From Acidobacteriaceae bacterium (lineage in GTDB: Bacteria; Acidobacteriota; Terriglobia; Terriglobales; Acidobacteriaceae), in the NCBI GenBank assembly GCA_025352065.1, contig JANXUC010000092.1, positions 1 to 64,000 of the forward strand: a stretch of DNA of 64,000 bases, in the 5' to 3' direction. The notes under the pieces were generated by a model. That model ran no database searches, was not told the origin of the DNA, and saw only the letters and a program-made list of their open reading frames with translations. The position numbers were made by a program, and so were the translations under genes. Shown in pieces: positions 39,170-46,129 of this stretch. Positions within the stretch are counted from its first letter, which is position 1; the number at the start of each line of letters is the position of its first letter.

Positions 39170-41617
39170 TCAGGAAGAGGGAGCGCCAGCAGCGCGGACT
39201 CGCCCCGTTTGTTCGTGATGTTGTTGTTTCAGAACGTACATGCGGCGGTCAGCCTCCGCCAACAGTTGCTCGGCGTCCAGTCCGTCTTCGGGATAGGACG
39301 TCTGTCCTACGCTTAACGAGAGAAGCTCTTCACCGCAAATCTCCTTACCGACTGCGGTCGCCAGTTCCATCAGTTGGCGAGTCTTGGTCAGAGCCGCATC
39401 TGCGGAGAGTCCCGGCATGACCAGGACAAACTCGTCGCCGCCCATGCGCGCAACATAGTCGTATTCGCGACAGACGCTTTTCAGGCGGTCGGCGAACAGG
39501 CGCAGCAAGCGGTTGCCCTCCAGGTGGCCATAGCGGTCGTTCACCTGCTTGAAGCCATTCAGGTCCGTGACCATCACGGCCAGAGCGCTTTGACTGCGCT
39601 TGCAGCGTGCCAATTCTTGATCCAAATGGAGAAAAAGTGATCGTGCATTTGGCAGCTCGGTCAAATAGTCGGTGGTAGCGGAACTTTCGGCTTGACGATA
39701 CTTCAATGCGTTTTCTAAAGACAATGCAGCCTTTGAACTGATGGCTAACAGGATGCGTAAATTGTCGCTGTCGAACGCATCCAACTCCGTGCGGTAAAGG
39801 GTGAGTGCGCCAATCACGCCCGTACACCCCTCCAACGGAATGGAAAGGGCCGAACGCAAAGTGCTGAATTTACTCTCGTCGTCGAGATAACCGGGTTCCA
39901 CCGATGGGTTTCCATTGATGATGGGCTTCCCATTCTGCGCCACCCAGCCGGAAACTCCTTCGCCCAGCGGAATCCGTAAGGAGGAAAAAAGACGAAAGTT
40001 GTCGCCGCTGACATATTGCGGAAGCAAGCGACCTTCCTCGCGCACGTAAACGGCGATGGAATCGTAAGGCACAATCCGTTTGAGTTTCACTGCAAGAACG
40101 GAAAGCGTTTCGTCCAGACTCAGCGAAGCGCCCAATTCATGGCTCAGTTCAAACAAGGACTGTGCTTCTTGTCGCGCTGCTGCAATGGAAGCCAGGAAGC
40201 CAGCTTCGTTTTTCTGCGGAGCGTTTTCAATCGAGGCGAATTCAAATCCTGCGGCAGGCGTCTGCCCTCGTTCCACCTTTACATTCACGGAGAGGCCGCT
40301 GAAGGGCACGGTGGCGGCTTGCGCTGTGACACGCGCTTCCATCTCGACGCAGTTGTCGCACAATACTTCCACAATTCGCGGATCGAAGGCCACGCCCGAT
40401 TGCTCGCGCAGGCTTTGCAGGACATCCTCCATGGATAGGGCTTTTCGATACTGCCGGTCGGAGGCCAAAGCGTCCAGATAATCTACGGCGGAAAGAATGC
40501 GTGCCCCAATCGGAATTTCCTCGCCCTTCAATCCAAATGGATAGCCGGAGCCATCCCACTTCTCGTGGTGCGCGCGAACAATGGGAACCACGGGATAGGG
40601 AAAATGCACGCGCTCCAGAATTTCAGCTCCGACCAGCGGATGGATCTTGATCTTTTCGAATTCTTCCGGACTCAGCCTTCCCGGTTTGGAAATAATGTGT
40701 TCCGGAACAGCAAGTTTGCCAATGTCGTGCAACAAGGCTGCTGCCTGCACCGCCTCGCATTCGTCCGAGGACAAATTCAATTTCTTCGCCATCTCCACCG
40801 CGTAGACACGAACACGTTGTAGATGTTCATGCGTGGTGTGGTCTTTCGCTTCAATGGCCAACGCCAGCGCTTCAATCGTGCGCATGTGCAGGTTTGCGAC
40901 TTCTTCCACATGCCGCTTTTCGTCGTCCAATTTCGCCAGGTAGAGGCGGTACGACCGATACACCACGTACACAGCAGGCAGCACCAGCAGGGAAGTCTCC
41001 CAGTGAATCCGGCGGTTGAGCCAGCCCACGAGAGATGCGATGCCCGCGTCCACCAGATAGTAGGGAAATGTCCAGAAGTAGAAGTCAGACCAAGTATTTT
41101 TGATCGATTGGTCTTCCGTAAGGGAAATTACGAAGGCTACTGGAAGCGTGTTTGCAAAAAAGAACACGGTAGCGGCCGCCAGCAAGGGTACGGAGATTCC
41201 GGCCTGCAGCATGCCGCCCAAGGCCCAGTGAAAAGTACCAAACGCCAATGCCGTAGCCATGCTGACGCTGGCAACGTTGAAGGCTACCTGGAACCCGCGG
41301 GGGCGGTCCGCAAACAGGCATTGTGCCAGCGTCGCCGCGCATCCAATCAGCAGAGTCTCCCCAAGGCTTAACTCCACTACGCCAAGCAGGATAAACAGAA
41401 AGTTGACTGACATCGTTCCAGCGATGCCGGGCAACTTCACTTTTAAACGCGAAGCAATGACGGCGATCGCCAGATACGAAACGAACTGCGCGGGATCATG
41501 ACTCGACCAGTGTGCCAGGCCGAATCCGAGCAACAGGGTTCCTGCGATCACAATCGTGCGAATAAATGCGCGAGCACGCCCAGACAGAGCGTCCCAATTT
41601 TGCGCCTGTTCCGCCAA
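39170..41617 (-). CDS. Membrane c-di-GMP enzyme: HD-GYP + GAF + GGDEF
   Basis: An ~815-residue signalling protein. Order: N-terminal multi-helix membrane module (~15-225), HD-GYP phosphodiesterase (~240-425, LLHDIGKLAVPEHII and HHEKWDGSGYP intact), GAF sensor (~485-640), and GGDEF diguanylate cyclase (~645-795) with MGGDEF and an inhibitory I-site REYD five residues before it. It could therefore both break and make c-di-GMP. The TTG at 41617 is chosen because GGAGG lies six bases upstream; a TTG at 41692 would add 25 residues. It is divergent from a PilZ-containing activator, and its membrane module is also encoded alone at 45407. Confidence 0.9.
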   Translation of the reverse strand: MAEQAQNWDALSGRARAFIRTIVIAGTLLLGFGLAHWSSHDPAQFVSYLAIAVIASRLKVKLPGIAGTMSVNFLFILLGVVELSLGETLLIGCAATLAQCLFADRPRGFQVAFNVASVSMATALAFGTFHWALGGMLQAGISVPLLAAATVFFFANTLPVAFVISLTEDQSIKNTWSDFYFWTFPYYLVDAGIASLVGWLNRRIHWETSLLVLPAVYVVYRSYRLYLAKLDDEKRHVEEVANLHMRTIEALALAIEAKDHTTHEHLQRVRVYAVEMAKKLNLSSDECEAVQAAALLHDIGKLAVPEHIISKPGRLSPEEFEKIKIHPLVGAEILERVHFPYPVVPIVRAHHEKWDGSGYPFGLKGEEIPIGARILSAVDYLDALASDRQYRKALSMEDVLQSLREQSGVAFDPRIVEVLCDNCVEMEARVTAQAATVPFSGLSVNVKVERGQTPAAGFEFASIENAPQKNEAGFLASIAAARQEAQSLFELSHELGASLSLDETLSVLAVKLKRIVPYDSIAVYVREEGRLLPQYVSGDNFRLFSSLRIPLGEGVSGWVAQNGKPIINGNPSVEPGYLDDESKFSTLRSALSIPLEGCTGVIGALTLYRTELDAFDSDNLRILLAISSKAALSLENALKYRQAESSATTDYLTELPNARSLFLHLDQELARCKRSQSALAVMVTDLNGFKQVNDRYGHLEGNRLLRLFADRLKSVCREYDYVARMGGDEFVLVMPGLSADAALTKTRQLMELATAVGKEICGEELLSLSVGQTSYPEDGLDAEQLLAEADRRMYVLKQQHHEQTGRVRAAGAPSS

Positions 41618-41880
41618 ATCAACCCTCCGATAGGTGACCGCTGTAGCGTCGTCTGAATTGAGCAGATACGCACGCAAAACTGTGCGACACAACGTTATTC
41701 AAAGGTCGGTTTAGCGTAGTTCACCTGCCGTGTAAAGGGCAGAGTACCGAGGTAACAAAAAGGAGATGGTTGCGAGATCGATGAACTCTCAACTCTGCGG
41801 ACGCAACGCTGAAACGATGGTAACTTTCCTGTCGCCCATCGGGGATGATAAGACAACGAAGGGAAAGAAGTGTGGGCTCA

Positions 41881-43335
41881 ATGGCAGGAGAAGGTTTCGG
41901 TGTAAGCCCGCAGCGGGAAACACCGCCGGACCACCGACAAGACCAGCGCGAGGGCCAGCGTGAAGATCAGCGCGCAAGCCAGCGCGAAGATCGCGACCGG
42001 GTTCGTATCGGAGACCTCGTCGCCGTCGTGCGCAGCGACGCCATGCACAAGCTCCTTGGCATGGTGGAGCGCGTCGCGCGCCACAACGCCGCCGTCCTCG
42101 TCACCGGAGAAACCGGGACTGGCAAGGAAATGATTGCCCGCGCCATCCACCAGTATTCTTTGCGCTGCAATCGGCCCTTCGTGGATGTCAATTGCGCGGC
42201 CTTACCCGACAATTTGGCGGAAAGTGAGCTTTTTGGCCACGAAAAAGGCGCTTTTAGCAGCGCCGACAGCCAAAAGCCTGGCCTGTTTGAGATGGCCAAC
42301 CACGGCACGTTGTTTCTCGACGAAATCGGCGAACTGGACGCCAAAGTCCAAGTAAAGTTGCTGCGCGTTTTGGACGGCGTTCCGTACTATCGCCTCGGCG
42401 GCAGCCGCAAAGTAACGGTCGATGTCCGCATCGTGGCTGCCACCAACCTGAATTTAGACGAAGCCGTTCACGATGGCCGTTTCCGAAGTGATCTGTACCA
42501 CCGTCTCAATCAATTCCAGTTACGCGTACCGCCTTTGCGGGAGCGCCATGACGACATTGCTGCGCTGGCGGAGTTTCTGTTAGAGCAGAATTTGCCCGGC
42601 GGCCAGTTTTCTCCCGCAGCGATGGAAGTCCTGATTCGCGCGCCCTGGAAGGGGAATGTCCGCGAACTGCGCAATGTGCTGTTGAAGGCGGTCATGCACC
42701 TCGAGTCTGGACGTGCGGAGGTACGTCCTGCGGATCTGCTGCCCTTTCTTGGCCCGCACAAGCACGCCCCTGCAGCTGCGGGAGCCGGAGTCGCACCACA
42801 GCCTTTCCAAGGTAGCCTCGGCGACCTTGAACGGCAGGCCATCTTCGAGGCTCTGGCGAAAACCGGCGGTGATCGGGATGAAACCGCCCGCCAACTCGGC
42901 ATCTCCCGCCGCACGCTAACCCGCAAACTCCAGCGGTATGAAAGGGAAGACGCTGCTAATCCAGGGTTGGGACGGATTAACACGGATCAGCAGCGCTATT
43001 TCCGTGTTGCCGTGCACATTCCAGCGGATCTCCAGTTGGATACGGGCGTCCGCATCGCCGCCGAGATTAACAACGTCAGTATTGGCGGTGTGGCCCTCTG
43101 CAGCCAGGAGACCCTCAACTATGGGGCCAAGGTTCAGCTCTGCTTTGGCTTGAACAAGACCACGTCCATCACCACTAGCGCCGAAGTGGTCTGGGTTGAA
43201 GGCAAGCGTGTTGGACTGCGCTTTACCGCTCTCAGCGCCACCGCACGACGCGACCTAGGCCGGTGGCTGCTCCAAAAGGCGCAGTCGGAGGGCTGGGACA
43301 TCGGCCTCGCCGCCACCGAAACCGCCACCGTTTAG
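41881..43335 (+). CDS. Sigma-54 activator-like AAA+ protein with Fis HTH and PilZ domain
   Basis: A 484-residue regulator. An N-terminal Gln/Arg/Glu low-complexity stretch (~17-40) replaces any receiver domain. AAA+ domain ~45-290: Walker A GETGTGKE (~76-83), GAFSSA (123-128) in place of the canonical sigma-54-contacting GAFTGA, Walker [11 protein letters not shown], and [22 protein letters not shown] with Arg fingers. Fis-type HTH ~325-353 ([21 protein letters not shown]). PilZ-like domain ~370-465 ([18 protein letters not shown]), a c-di-GMP receptor fold, though the first Arg of RxxxR appears as Gln. An ATG at 41845 is the alternative start. Confidence 0.85.
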
Positions 43336-43358
43336 CAACTTCCGCCCAGCATTTCTTA

Positions 43359-43371
43359 GGACAATTTGTCC
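43359..43371. promoter_or_regulatory. Upstream palindrome GGACAA-n-TTGTCC (site 1)
   Basis: A perfect 6+1+6 inverted repeat 24 bases after the activator gene. It shares its arms with site 2, 81 bases downstream, making both good candidates for binding sites of the Fis-type HTH protein encoded next door. Confidence 0.5.
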
Positions 43372-43437
43372 AAATCCACCCCGGACGGTGCCCTTCCAAT
43401 GTTTTCAAGCAGATACAAGGAACCCCAGCTTTCCTTG

Positions 43438-43454
43438 CCGGACAAGTTGTCCGG
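43438..43454. promoter_or_regulatory. Upstream palindrome CCGGACAA-n-TTGTCCGG (site 2)
   Basis: A perfect 8+1+8 inverted repeat containing the same GGACAA/TTGTCC arms as site 1. Its centre lies about 82 bases before the -12 element of the predicted sigma-54 promoter, a normal distance for an enhancer site. Confidence 0.55.
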
Positions 43455-43462
43455 AAGCGGCT

Positions 43463-43478
43463 TTACGCAATTGCGTAA
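43463..43478. promoter_or_regulatory. Palindrome TTACGCAATTGCGTAA
   Basis: A perfect 16-bp inverted repeat between site 2 and the predicted promoter, different in sequence from the GGACAA sites. It could bind a second regulator. Confidence 0.35.
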
Positions 43479-43514
43479 CTCCAAGTAATTACGGTACTTA
43501 CCGGCCTCGCCTTG

Positions 43515-43530
43515 TGGTGGAAGGCTTGCT
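43515..43530 (+). promoter_or_regulatory. Candidate sigma-54 (-24/-12) promoter of the subtilase gene
   Basis: TGGTGGA-AGGC-TTGCT matches the consensus TGGYRYR-N4-TTGCW except one position; GG at 43516-43517 and GC at 43528-43529 are separated by ten bases. It lies 42 bases before the subtilase start and downstream of two matching palindromes. Confidence 0.55.
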
Positions 43531-43572
43531 TCTCTCTAGGCACGACCCGCATCGAGGTCGAGAGGGAGGACT

Positions 43573-45375
43573 ATGAAACCGACACTGAATCTGAAACCTA
43601 AGGGGCCAGCGGAGAAACGCCATCAACGCGGCCGGACTGCTGCTTGGGCCCTGGCATTCTTGGGAGCCTTCGGCCTTCCATTTACTGCGGTAGCGGCTCA
43701 GCGTGGCTTCTTAGACCGTGAAGATGCCTTTGCTGGCTCGAAGCTGTCTACCGAATTCCGAGCTGCCCGTTCAGCTCGGGGTTCTAATCAGATGGTGAAG
43801 GTCATTATCCAGTACAAGCAGCCTGTTATGAATAGGATGGCGGCTCCTGGCGAGGCAGAAATGCGCGCCAAGGGTGCCACCGTTAACGCTCGCCTCGGCT
43901 CCATTCGCGCCGTGGCTATGCGCGTACCCGCTTGGATGATTCCCCAGATCGCGAAGAATCCGAATGTCGCCTACATCACGCCGGATCGACCGGTGCAGAT
44001 GACGGGCTACGACGAAGATGCAGGCACGGCGGTCTCGCGAGACGTTGCTGCAACACAGTTTAGCGTCGATGGAACCGGTGTCGGCGTGGCCGTGATTGAC
44101 AGCGGGGTAGCCGATCACGCGGATCTTCACGATGCCAGCGGCGCTTCCCGGGTAGTTTACAGCGAGAGCTTCGTCGCGGGCGATATCGCAACCTCCGATA
44201 AGTACGGACATGGTACGCACGTTGCAGGCATCATCGGCGGCAATGGCTTTTCCTCGCAGTCCGGCAGCGGGTATGCGCGTCCTCTCACCGGCATGGCGGC
44301 TGGTGTGAACATCATCAACCTGCGCGTGCTGGACCAGAACGGTTCTGGCACGGACAGCCAGACGATTGCCGCTATTCAGCGCGCTATCGCTCTGAAGGCC
44401 ACCTACAACATCCGTGTGATCAACCTTTCGTTGGGTCGCGGAGTTTACGAAAGCTACACGCTGGATCCTCTTTGCCAAGCAGTTGAGGCAGCTTGGAACG
44501 CAGGTATCGTTGTAGTTGTGGCGGCTGGTAACAGCGGTCGCGACAATTCGATCGGTACCCACGGCTACTCCATGATCGGAGCGCCGGGCAACGATCCTTA
44601 CGTCTTGACTGTGGGCGCAACCCGCACACGCGGCACCGCGACCCGCACCGACGACGTGAAGGCCAGCTACAGCTCGAAGGGGCCGTCGCTGATCGATCAC
44701 ATCGTGAAGCCGGACTTGGTTGCACCCGGCAACCGTATCGCATCGCTGCGTGCGGCTGGTAGCACACTGGATACGAACCATCCTGAATTCCAGGAAGGCT
44801 CCGCGAACGGCGGTACGCCGCAATATTTCCGCCTGAGTGGAACCAGCATGGCGACGCCGGTTGTCGTGGGCGCCGTGGCCTTGATGCTGCAACAAAATCC
44901 GACTCTAACCCCGGATCAAGTGAAAGCACGCCTGATGAAGACTGCCTGGAAGGGTTTTGGTCTTTATTCTTCCGCTCTGGACAGCAACGGCAATACGTAC
45001 TCCGATCAGTACGATGTGTTCAGCTACGGCGCGGGCTACCTGGATGTGCAGGCCGCTCTTGCCAATACCGATGTGGCGCAGGGTGCAGCCCTTTCGCCAA
45101 CGGCCGTCTACAACGTGTTGAACGGTAGCGTGTATCTGGCGAACACCACGATTCGTCTGACCGCCAATTCAGTGGTTTGGGGCAATTCGGTTGTTTGGGG
45201 CACCTCCGTCGTGTGGGGCAACTCCACACTTACTGCGAACTCCGTGGTTTGGGGTAACAGCGTGGTCTGGGGCAACGTCAACGATAGCGCTTTCAGCGTC
45301 GTCTGGGGCAACAGCGTGGTTTGGGGCAACTCGAACACGCAAGCCTTCAGCAGCGGCGACGATGGCGAGAACTAA
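43573..45375 (+). CDS. Secreted S8 serine peptidase with VVWGNS repeats
   Basis: A 600-residue subtilase. A signal peptide (~22-42) is followed by an inhibitor-I9-like propeptide (~73-140) and the catalytic domain with Asp176 (AVIDSGVADH), His213 (YGHGTHVAG), Asn320 (VAAGNSG) and Ser425 (SGTSMATP). The C-terminus (~533-587) carries seven VVWG units in SVVWGNSVVWG pairs, then an acidic end. Such repeats are typical of acidobacterial subtilases and probably form a beta structure of unknown role. GAGGGAGG precedes the ATG. A sigma-54-type promoter and two palindromes stand upstream. Confidence 0.93.
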   Translation: MKPTLNLKPKGPAEKRHQRGRTAAWALAFLGAFGLPFTAVAAQRGFLDREDAFAGSKLSTEFRAARSARGSNQMVKVIIQYKQPVMNRMAAPGEAEMRAKGATVNARLGSIRAVAMRVPAWMIPQIAKNPNVAYITPDRPVQMTGYDEDAGTAVSRDVAATQFSVDGTGVGVAVIDSGVADHADLHDASGASRVVYSESFVAGDIATSDKYGHGTHVAGIIGGNGFSSQSGSGYARPLTGMAAGVNIINLRVLDQNGSGTDSQTIAAIQRAIALKATYNIRVINLSLGRGVYESYTLDPLCQAVEAAWNAGIVVVVAAGNSGRDNSIGTHGYSMIGAPGNDPYVLTVGATRTRGTATRTDDVKASYSSKGPSLIDHIVKPDLVAPGNRIASLRAAGSTLDTNHPEFQEGSANGGTPQYFRLSGTSMATPVVVGAVALMLQQNPTLTPDQVKARLMKTAWKGFGLYSSALDSNGNTYSDQYDVFSYGAGYLDVQAALANTDVAQGAALSPTAVYNVLNGSVYLANTTIRLTANSVVWGNSVVWGTSVVWGNSTLTANSVVWGNSVVWGNVNDSAFSVVWGNSVVWGNSNTQAFSSGDDGEN

Positions 45376-45406: not shown

Positions 45407-46129
45407 ATGACACGCTCATTACCCAAATCGGCGCAACTTTTCGTCGGTGCGGTAGCGGCAGTCAGCTTGGTCCCGGTAATCGCCGGAGGCCTGCAGTGGC
45501 AAGCGCAAAACCCACTGCTTACGCTGAGTCTGCTAGCTGCAGCAGTCCTGACTTCGAAGATGAAAGTGAAGTTGCCAGGACTGACCAGCACCATGTCTGT
45601 GAACTTGCCGTTCCTGTTGTTAGCTATCGCGGAGCTGAACTTGTTGGAAGCTTCGCTGGTAGCCGCAGCCGCAGGATTGGCTCAAACCCTGGGCGGTGAG
45701 AATCGTCCGGAATTCGTAAAAGTACTGTTCAACACCTGCACACTGACCAACGCCGCCGCTGCATCTTATGTGGTGTTTCACCACGCGGGCAGCGAAGGCA
45801 AACTGACGATCGTCGCTCTCTGGACCGCCGCTGCCGCAGCGGTGTACTTCCTGGCGAACACCATACCGGTCGCCACGATCATCGCTCTTTCGTCCGGCCA
45901 GAAAGCATCGAAGGTGTGGTCCGACTTCTTTATGTGGACCTTCCCCTGCTACGTTCTGGGAACTGGAGTAGCCGCCATCGCGATGTCCGCACAATCGCTG
46001 GTCAACTGGCAAGCTCTGCTTCCGATGGTTGCCGTCGCCTACGGCGTGTACCGCTCGTACACGATGTATGCGTCGCGCATGGAAGCCGAAGCTCCAGTAC
46101 GTGCCATGGCAGCAGGTGCAGGCCACTAA
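45407..46129 (+). CDS. Stand-alone membrane module like that of the HD-GYP protein
   Basis: A 240-residue polytopic membrane protein with no output domain. It matches the N-terminal module of the HD-GYP/GGDEF protein at 39170-41617: KMKVKLPGLTSTMSVNLPFL versus RLKVKLPGIAGTMSVNFLFI, FLANTIPVA versus FFANTLPVA, KVWSDFFMWTFPCYVLGTG versus NTWSDFYFWTFPYYLVDAG, and GVYRSYTMYASRME versus VVYRSYRLYLAKLD. The ATG at 45407 lies 31 bases after the subtilase stop; ATG 45365 is an alternative. Probably cotranscribed with the subtilase. Ligand unknown. Confidence 0.8.
   Translation: MTRSLPKSAQLFVGAVAAVSLVPVIAGGLQWQAQNPLLTLSLLAAAVLTSKMKVKLPGLTSTMSVNLPFLLLAIAELNLLEASLVAAAAGLAQTLGGENRPEFVKVLFNTCTLTNAAAASYVVFHHAGSEGKLTIVALWTAAAAAVYFLANTIPVATIIALSSGQKASKVWSDFFMWTFPCYVLGTGVAAIAMSAQSLVNWQALLPMVAVAYGVYRSYTMYASRMEAEAPVRAMAAGAGH

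Follow-up and report, generated by a model that had tools for sequence, protein, structure and literature searches.

The gene for an S8 (subtilisin-like) peptidase in the window (the whole 64,000-nucleotide stretch of DNA analyzed here) is very probably under a sigma-54-dependent promoter that has two upstream activator sequences (UAS) and is worked by the activator encoded next to it. Paired palindromes and a -24/-12 promoter match, held at a near-constant spacing, recur ahead of S8 relatives from 13 genera; an earlier note on this DNA had held that its reading would fall if the palindromes were not conserved upstream of orthologues, and the reading passes that test.

Paired palindromes and a -24/-12 match ahead of the S8 gene

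Two palindromes and a -24/-12 match occupy the interval between the activator open reading frame (ORF), which ends at 43335, and the peptidase ATG at 43573, itself preceded by a GGGAGGA-type ribosome-binding site (Table 1). The earlier note had described palindromes 81 bases apart from center to center and a promoter element with GG and GC separated by ten bases, and the window sequence agrees in each respect: the centers fall at 43365 and 43446, the GG of TGGTGGAAGGCTTGCT at 43516 to 43517 and its GC at 43528 to 43529, in keeping with the pattern TGG-N9-TGC. From the center of the proximal palindrome to the -12 GC is approximately 82 bp. The same note placed an activator gene directly upstream of the sites, and the ORF at that position does carry Sigma54_activat and HTH_8 domains. 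A scan of positions 43250 to 43650 returned no sigma-70 type match, rpoN was found in the genome (PF04552 match, E of 2.9e-60), and transcription is predicted from the sequence to start at about 43541.

Table 1. Features at the S8 peptidase locus (positions in the window)
Feature	Position	Strand	Basis or remark
Distal palindrome (UAS 1), GGACAATTTGTCC	43359..43371	no strand	Exact motif; center 43365
Proximal palindrome (UAS 2), CCGGACAAGTTGTCCGG	43438..43454	no strand	Center 43446
-24/-12 (sigma-54 type) promoter, TGGTGGAAGGCTTGCT	43515..43530	+	TGG-N9-TGC match
Candidate activator (enhancer-binding protein, bEBP) with Sigma54_activat, Fis-type HTH_8 and C-terminal PilZ; loop GAFSSA	41845..43335	+	Pfam, alignment, relatives
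HTH_8 DNA-binding segment, residues 325-365; presumed binder of the palindromes	42817..42939	+	Pfam
PilZ domain, residues 382-476; NxSxxG retained, Gln at the position of the first RxxxR Arg	42988..43272	+	Pfam, alignment
Predicted target: S8 (subtilisin-like) peptidase, SVVWG repeats at its C terminus	43573..45375	+	Pfam
MASE9-only membrane protein	45407..46129	+	Pfam; S8-MASE9 order recurs in L248 and L254
Divergent MASE9-HD-GYP-GAF-GGDEF protein	39170..41692	-	Pfam; often adjoins activator orthologues

Taken singly, the -24/-12 match is ordinary: TGG-N9-TGC occurs 58 times in the window, counting the two strands together, and a simple weighted scan with a maximum of 25 gives TGGTGGAAGGCTTGCT 19, against 24 for the best site. 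Because such matches are frequent, we set this one aside as evidence in its own right. Palindrome matches with up to two mismatches number 5 in the window against 2.46 expected, which is no clear enrichment, and 176 per strand in the whole genome, compared with 100 for the reversed pattern. The genome-wide search that the earlier note had suggested for the exact motif GGACAA-N-TTGTCC (GGACAANTTGTCC) returns only two copies in 4,247,604 bases, both at this locus, and none for the reversed control; the shorter form GGACA-N3-TGTCC (GGACANNNTGTCC) has three copies, as does its reversed control.

The arrangement recurs in the family

We searched 398 genomes of the family, a sample from a larger group, for the composite GGACANNNTGTCC-N58..76-TGG-N9-TGC, with the reversed composite and a version carrying N10 in place of N9 as controls. 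The activator was called present at an E value of 1e-88 or below and S8 at 1e-90 or below (both cut-offs being our choice), an S8 gene was counted as near if its match began within 700 bases downstream of the promoter, and the genome and genus lists behind the presence counts were compiled by hand. The composite produced 69 matches in 61 of the 398 genomes and the reversed pattern 4, while the N10 version produced 18 matches in 17 genomes, with S8 at 0 of the 18 loci. An S8 gene was near 42 of the 53 composite matches with gaps of 60 to 69 bp but near none of the 16 with gaps of 72 to 76 bp, and we therefore regard the wrong gaps as background and the right gaps as signal.

Several features that lay outside the query are conserved in the 42 S8 promoters. 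In 40 of them, against 2.2 expected, another palindrome with no more than 2 of 10 positions mismatched occurs within 130 bp upstream, at spacings of either 28 to 34 or 78 to 94 bp, the 81 bp of the window belonging to the second class. In 38 of the 42, TGC is followed by A or T. One promoter, L254, also has an extra weak palindrome at a spacing of 13. Coincidence between short palindromes and a chance GG-N10-GC would fit the lack of clear enrichment for two-mismatch matches in the window, but it is contradicted by the conservation with spacing, by the second palindromes and by the confinement of the exact motif to this locus, and we give it next to no weight. The combination of the elements, together with its conservation, is not chance.

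Dimeric repressors commonly use perfect palindromes with odd spacing, and with a -24/-12 match that is ordinary by itself, the sites could be read as operators for a repressor or activator of another kind, such as a dimer of the TetR or LexA type, beside a coincidental promoter match. This we consider very unlikely, given that the gap to the -24/-12 element is tight across genera, with S8 matches only at 60 to 69 bp, that the conserved base after TGC was no part of the query, and that the region is without a sigma-70 type match.

The gap between the palindromes and the promoter holds a further element. Sites resembling WATCAANNNNTTR, which we take to be the Escherichia coli IHF consensus, with 8 to 9 of its 9 positions matched, are present in the gap of 26 of the 42 S8 promoters, compared with 3.8% of shuffled gaps, and they lie 12 to 16 bases before the -24 element on one strand or 24 to 28 bases before it on the other. 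The window promoter is outside these 26, its own copy being degenerate, and among the 27 composite matches without S8 the element is found in 2. Promoters of the kind that combines sigma-54 with UAS are assisted by IHF (PMC3709507, PMC8899819). A bend between UAS and promoter, by IHF or otherwise, is frequent in this class without being required.

Co-occurrence with the activator

The activator was found in 94 of the 398 genomes. The composite is present in 42 of these 94 and in 19 of the 304 others, whereas the N10 pattern is present in 4 and 13, respectively. By genus, composite and S8 occur together in 13 of 25 genera with the activator and in 0 of 54 without it; restricted to S8-bearing genera, the figures are 13 of 21 versus 0 of 8 (Fisher p of 0.003, a guide only, as are all such p values, because the genomes and genera are related). 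The counts are not independent, since a small number of genera (g6, g28) contribute many of the promoters.

These counts bear on the reading in which the palindromes are indeed sites for a sigma-54 activator but are bound by some other enhancer-binding protein of the genome. In its favor, the genome has 13 matches to the activator at E values of 1e-60 or below, and genus g66 has the PilZ-bearing activator without the palindromes. Against it, the genus distribution of the composite follows that of the PilZ activator (13 of 25 against 0 of 54), and the gene for this activator is next to the site in the window and no more than a few kilobases from S8 in many loci; we judge the reading improbable. 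The sigma-54 layout proposed in the earlier note also recurs at S8 genes that lie apart from the activator gene, for example in genome G005, with the activator on contig C13 and the target on contig C23.

Locus-by-locus comparison and exceptions

Near activator loci, the palindromes and -24/-12 element, with 82 to 89 bp from the proximal center to the GC, precede 12 S8 starts (the window, L140, L142 to L147, L150, L161, L182, and L185). The arrangement is absent or only weak at L145 (second copy), L156, L160, L168, L178, L183, L184, and L198, and for L109, L110, and L112 the promoter lies beyond the stretch scored in this listing. We also inspected further S8 genes, of which 26 belong to genomes with the activator and 14 to genomes scored as lacking it, along with two loci of the window's own genome (one locus, L329, has no usable start). 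Many activator-positive S8 genes without an exact match have a one-mismatch site (GGCCA/TGGCC variants) with a promoter at the same gap. Counting against the proposed pairing, 52 of the 94 activator-bearing genomes lack the exact composite, some of them having one-mismatch sites. Eight activator-positive S8 genes had nothing at one mismatch, namely all seven sampled from g66 and L309 (g70).

The g66 loci (L294, L297, L300, L302, L303, L305, and L306) have the activator and an S8 gene with a -24/-12 element but no GGACA palindrome. A de novo search for a palindrome in g66 gave no convincing one, and this lineage may have acquired an altered site.

Among the 14 activator-negative S8 genes, a site with a promoter is present in L318, L320, and L321, and a palindrome or weak match in L313, L319, and L322; the other 8 have nothing. 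These exceptions belong to g6, g27, and g71, genera in which other members have the activator. The activator-negative genomes with sites (G115, G309, G372, G317, G297, and G387) are from g6, g27, and g28, and we assume that their activators were missed or unassembled.

Possible other targets in this and related genomes

The third GGACANNNTGTCC copy of the genome is on contig C105, with a gap of 62 to TGGAATGCCTCGTGCT, a -24/-12 promoter, downstream of which are another S8 gene, 55% identical where the two match, and then a MASE9 gene. Contig C108 holds a third, frameshifted S8 copy that lacks a site of this kind. The layout read by the earlier note stands, and what it had overlooked is the C-terminal PilZ domain of the activator, the IHF-like site in relatives and this second genomic target.

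A few sites in related genomes are not associated with S8. L263 (G005, contig C9) has the composite and the IHF-like element before a gene whose product is, by eye, FHA-like; L260 has a composite site near an activator gene that looks real by its gap and IHF-like site, with no S8; and L251 has a second composite site, before a small ORF. They hint at a slightly wider regulon.

Domains of the activator and its neighbors

The activator combines a Sigma54_activat AAA+ domain (Pfam E of 1.1e-66) with Walker A and B motifs, a Fis-type HTH (HTH_8, E of 1.1e-14) and, placed after the HTH, a PilZ domain (PF07238, E of 1.6e-15). Its loop reads GAFSSA, unlike GAFTGA and the GAFSGA of most relatives: over 81 aligned rows, the fourth loop residue is S in 76 rows against T in 5, and at the fifth 79 rows have G and 2 have S. 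GAFSGA is given as a working loop variant in PMC6615313, and GAFSSA does not appear among the variants in the available text of that source.

The PilZ domain has the (D/N)xSxxG motif, as NVSIGG; at the position of RxxxR, described as a PilZ motif in PMC10333796, the window has QRYFR, and of 70 alignment rows without a gap at the first residue, 59 have Q there and a single one has R. An input of c-di-GMP that sets the state of the activator is plausible because the C-terminal PilZ domain sits in the activator itself and the divergent HD-GYP/GGDEF gene adjoins it; with the first Arg of RxxxR mostly replaced by Q, such sensing is put forward only as a proposal. The divergent MASE9-HD-GYP-GAF-GGDEF protein is the candidate for supplying or removing c-di-GMP, and the MASE9-only gene likely belongs to one operon with the S8 peptidase.

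A phmmer search of the PilZ segment against solved structures gave no match at E values up to 1. NCBIfam returned no family above cut-off for the activator among the 25 matches listed, and likewise none above cut-off for the S8 protein; the MASE9 protein had no NCBIfam match of any score. Searching genome contigs with the whole activator yielded matches of 35 to 57% identity, nearly all of which stop before the PilZ domain and which come mostly from other phyla.

Two observations concern activators without PilZ. In six g70 loci (L148, L152 to L154, L158, and L166), a shorter paralogue, whose alignment shows no clear PilZ domain, stands in tandem behind the PilZ-bearing activator. L113, from a genome of another family in the same class (G054), has an activator relative lacking PilZ beside a 52%-identical HD-GYP/GGDEF gene, which suggests that the HD-GYP pairing is separable from the PilZ fusion.

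Proposed mechanism and relation to known systems

We propose that the HTH of the adjoining enhancer-binding protein most likely binds both GGACA-N3-TGTCC palindromes, with activation as the presumed direction of control. DNA looping would carry the UAS-bound protein to the promoter, probably aided in relatives by a bending protein at the IHF-like site between UAS and promoter, and the AAA+ ring would remodel the sigma-54 polymerase at the -24/-12 element. The S8 peptidase gene, and probably also the MASE9 membrane gene, would then be transcribed from the predicted start.

A more ambitious scheme, which we think has little prospect of holding, closes these parts into a circuit: the PilZ activator would read c-di-GMP through a non-canonical site and turn on a secreted S8 peptidase; the peptidase tail, together with small cotranscribed peptides with a terminal SAVWG(S/G/A) in some relatives, would give rise to xxxWG peptides; and the MASE9 domains of the operon's last gene and of the divergent HD-GYP/GGDEF protein would sense these peptides and feed back on c-di-GMP.

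The promoter type is already known, and the closest counterparts differ from the present locus as follows. The pspA promoter of E. coli, controlled by PspF, likewise has two UAS, assistance from IHF, and a sigma-54 promoter (PMC3709507), but its target is another one, PspF is restrained by PspA, and the available text mentions no PilZ for PspF. BerB of Burkholderia cenocepacia, named as a c-di-GMP effector in the title of PMC5552954, resembles our activator as an enhancer-binding protein without an N-terminal sensor that works with RpoN; it keeps GAFTGA, however, and is described in the available text with AAA+ and DNA-binding domains only, in contrast to the GAFSSA loop and the PilZ domain behind the HTH in the present activator. 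FleQ, FlrA, and VpsR are NtrC-type proteins that bind c-di-GMP (PMC10333796, PMC12564702), although FleQ does so via its AAA+ domain rather than by way of a fused PilZ. MrkH of Klebsiella is a PilZ-containing transcription activator for which an AAA+/sigma-54 activation domain is not named in the available text of PMC12564702. The sigma-54 regulons of Clostridiales, delineated by comparative genomics from UAS and -24/-12 elements, often with one target and multiple UAS (PMC6615313), belong to another phylum and have other targets, and PilZ has 0 occurrences in the text of that source available to us. Finally, a PilZ domain is described in a Bdellovibrio subtilisin-like protein (PMC2605481), an arrangement different from an AAA+-HTH-PilZ protein plus S8.

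Our searches of the open-licence PMC literature brought up no recognizable description either of a PilZ-fused enhancer-binding protein of AAA+-HTH-PilZ order or of the S8/VVWG family and its regulon. The analysis provides a testable site motif and regulon for an Acidobacteriota enhancer-binding protein, ties a sigma-54 activator with PilZ behind its DNA-binding domain to one conserved peptidase family, documents an IHF-like element conserved in place, and makes it testable whether transcription can still be gated by a PilZ domain that lacks RxxxR.

WG repeats and small ORFs

The C terminus of the S8 peptidase, encoded at 45160 to 45340 of the window, carries hexapeptide-like NSVVWG repeats. 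By hand count, the tails of 81 of 82 S8 frames have at least one xxxWG, and those of 80 have three or more; the frame without any is the frameshifted L331. Small ORFs of approximately 33 to 70 codons lie just 5' of S8 in L145, L294, L300, L302, L303, L309, L325, and L327, and an NCBIfam search with two of the small peptides gave no match. Their products have a hydrophobic stretch and a C-terminal SAVWG(S/G/A), and the small ORFs of L109 and L110 contain two ALWG motifs.
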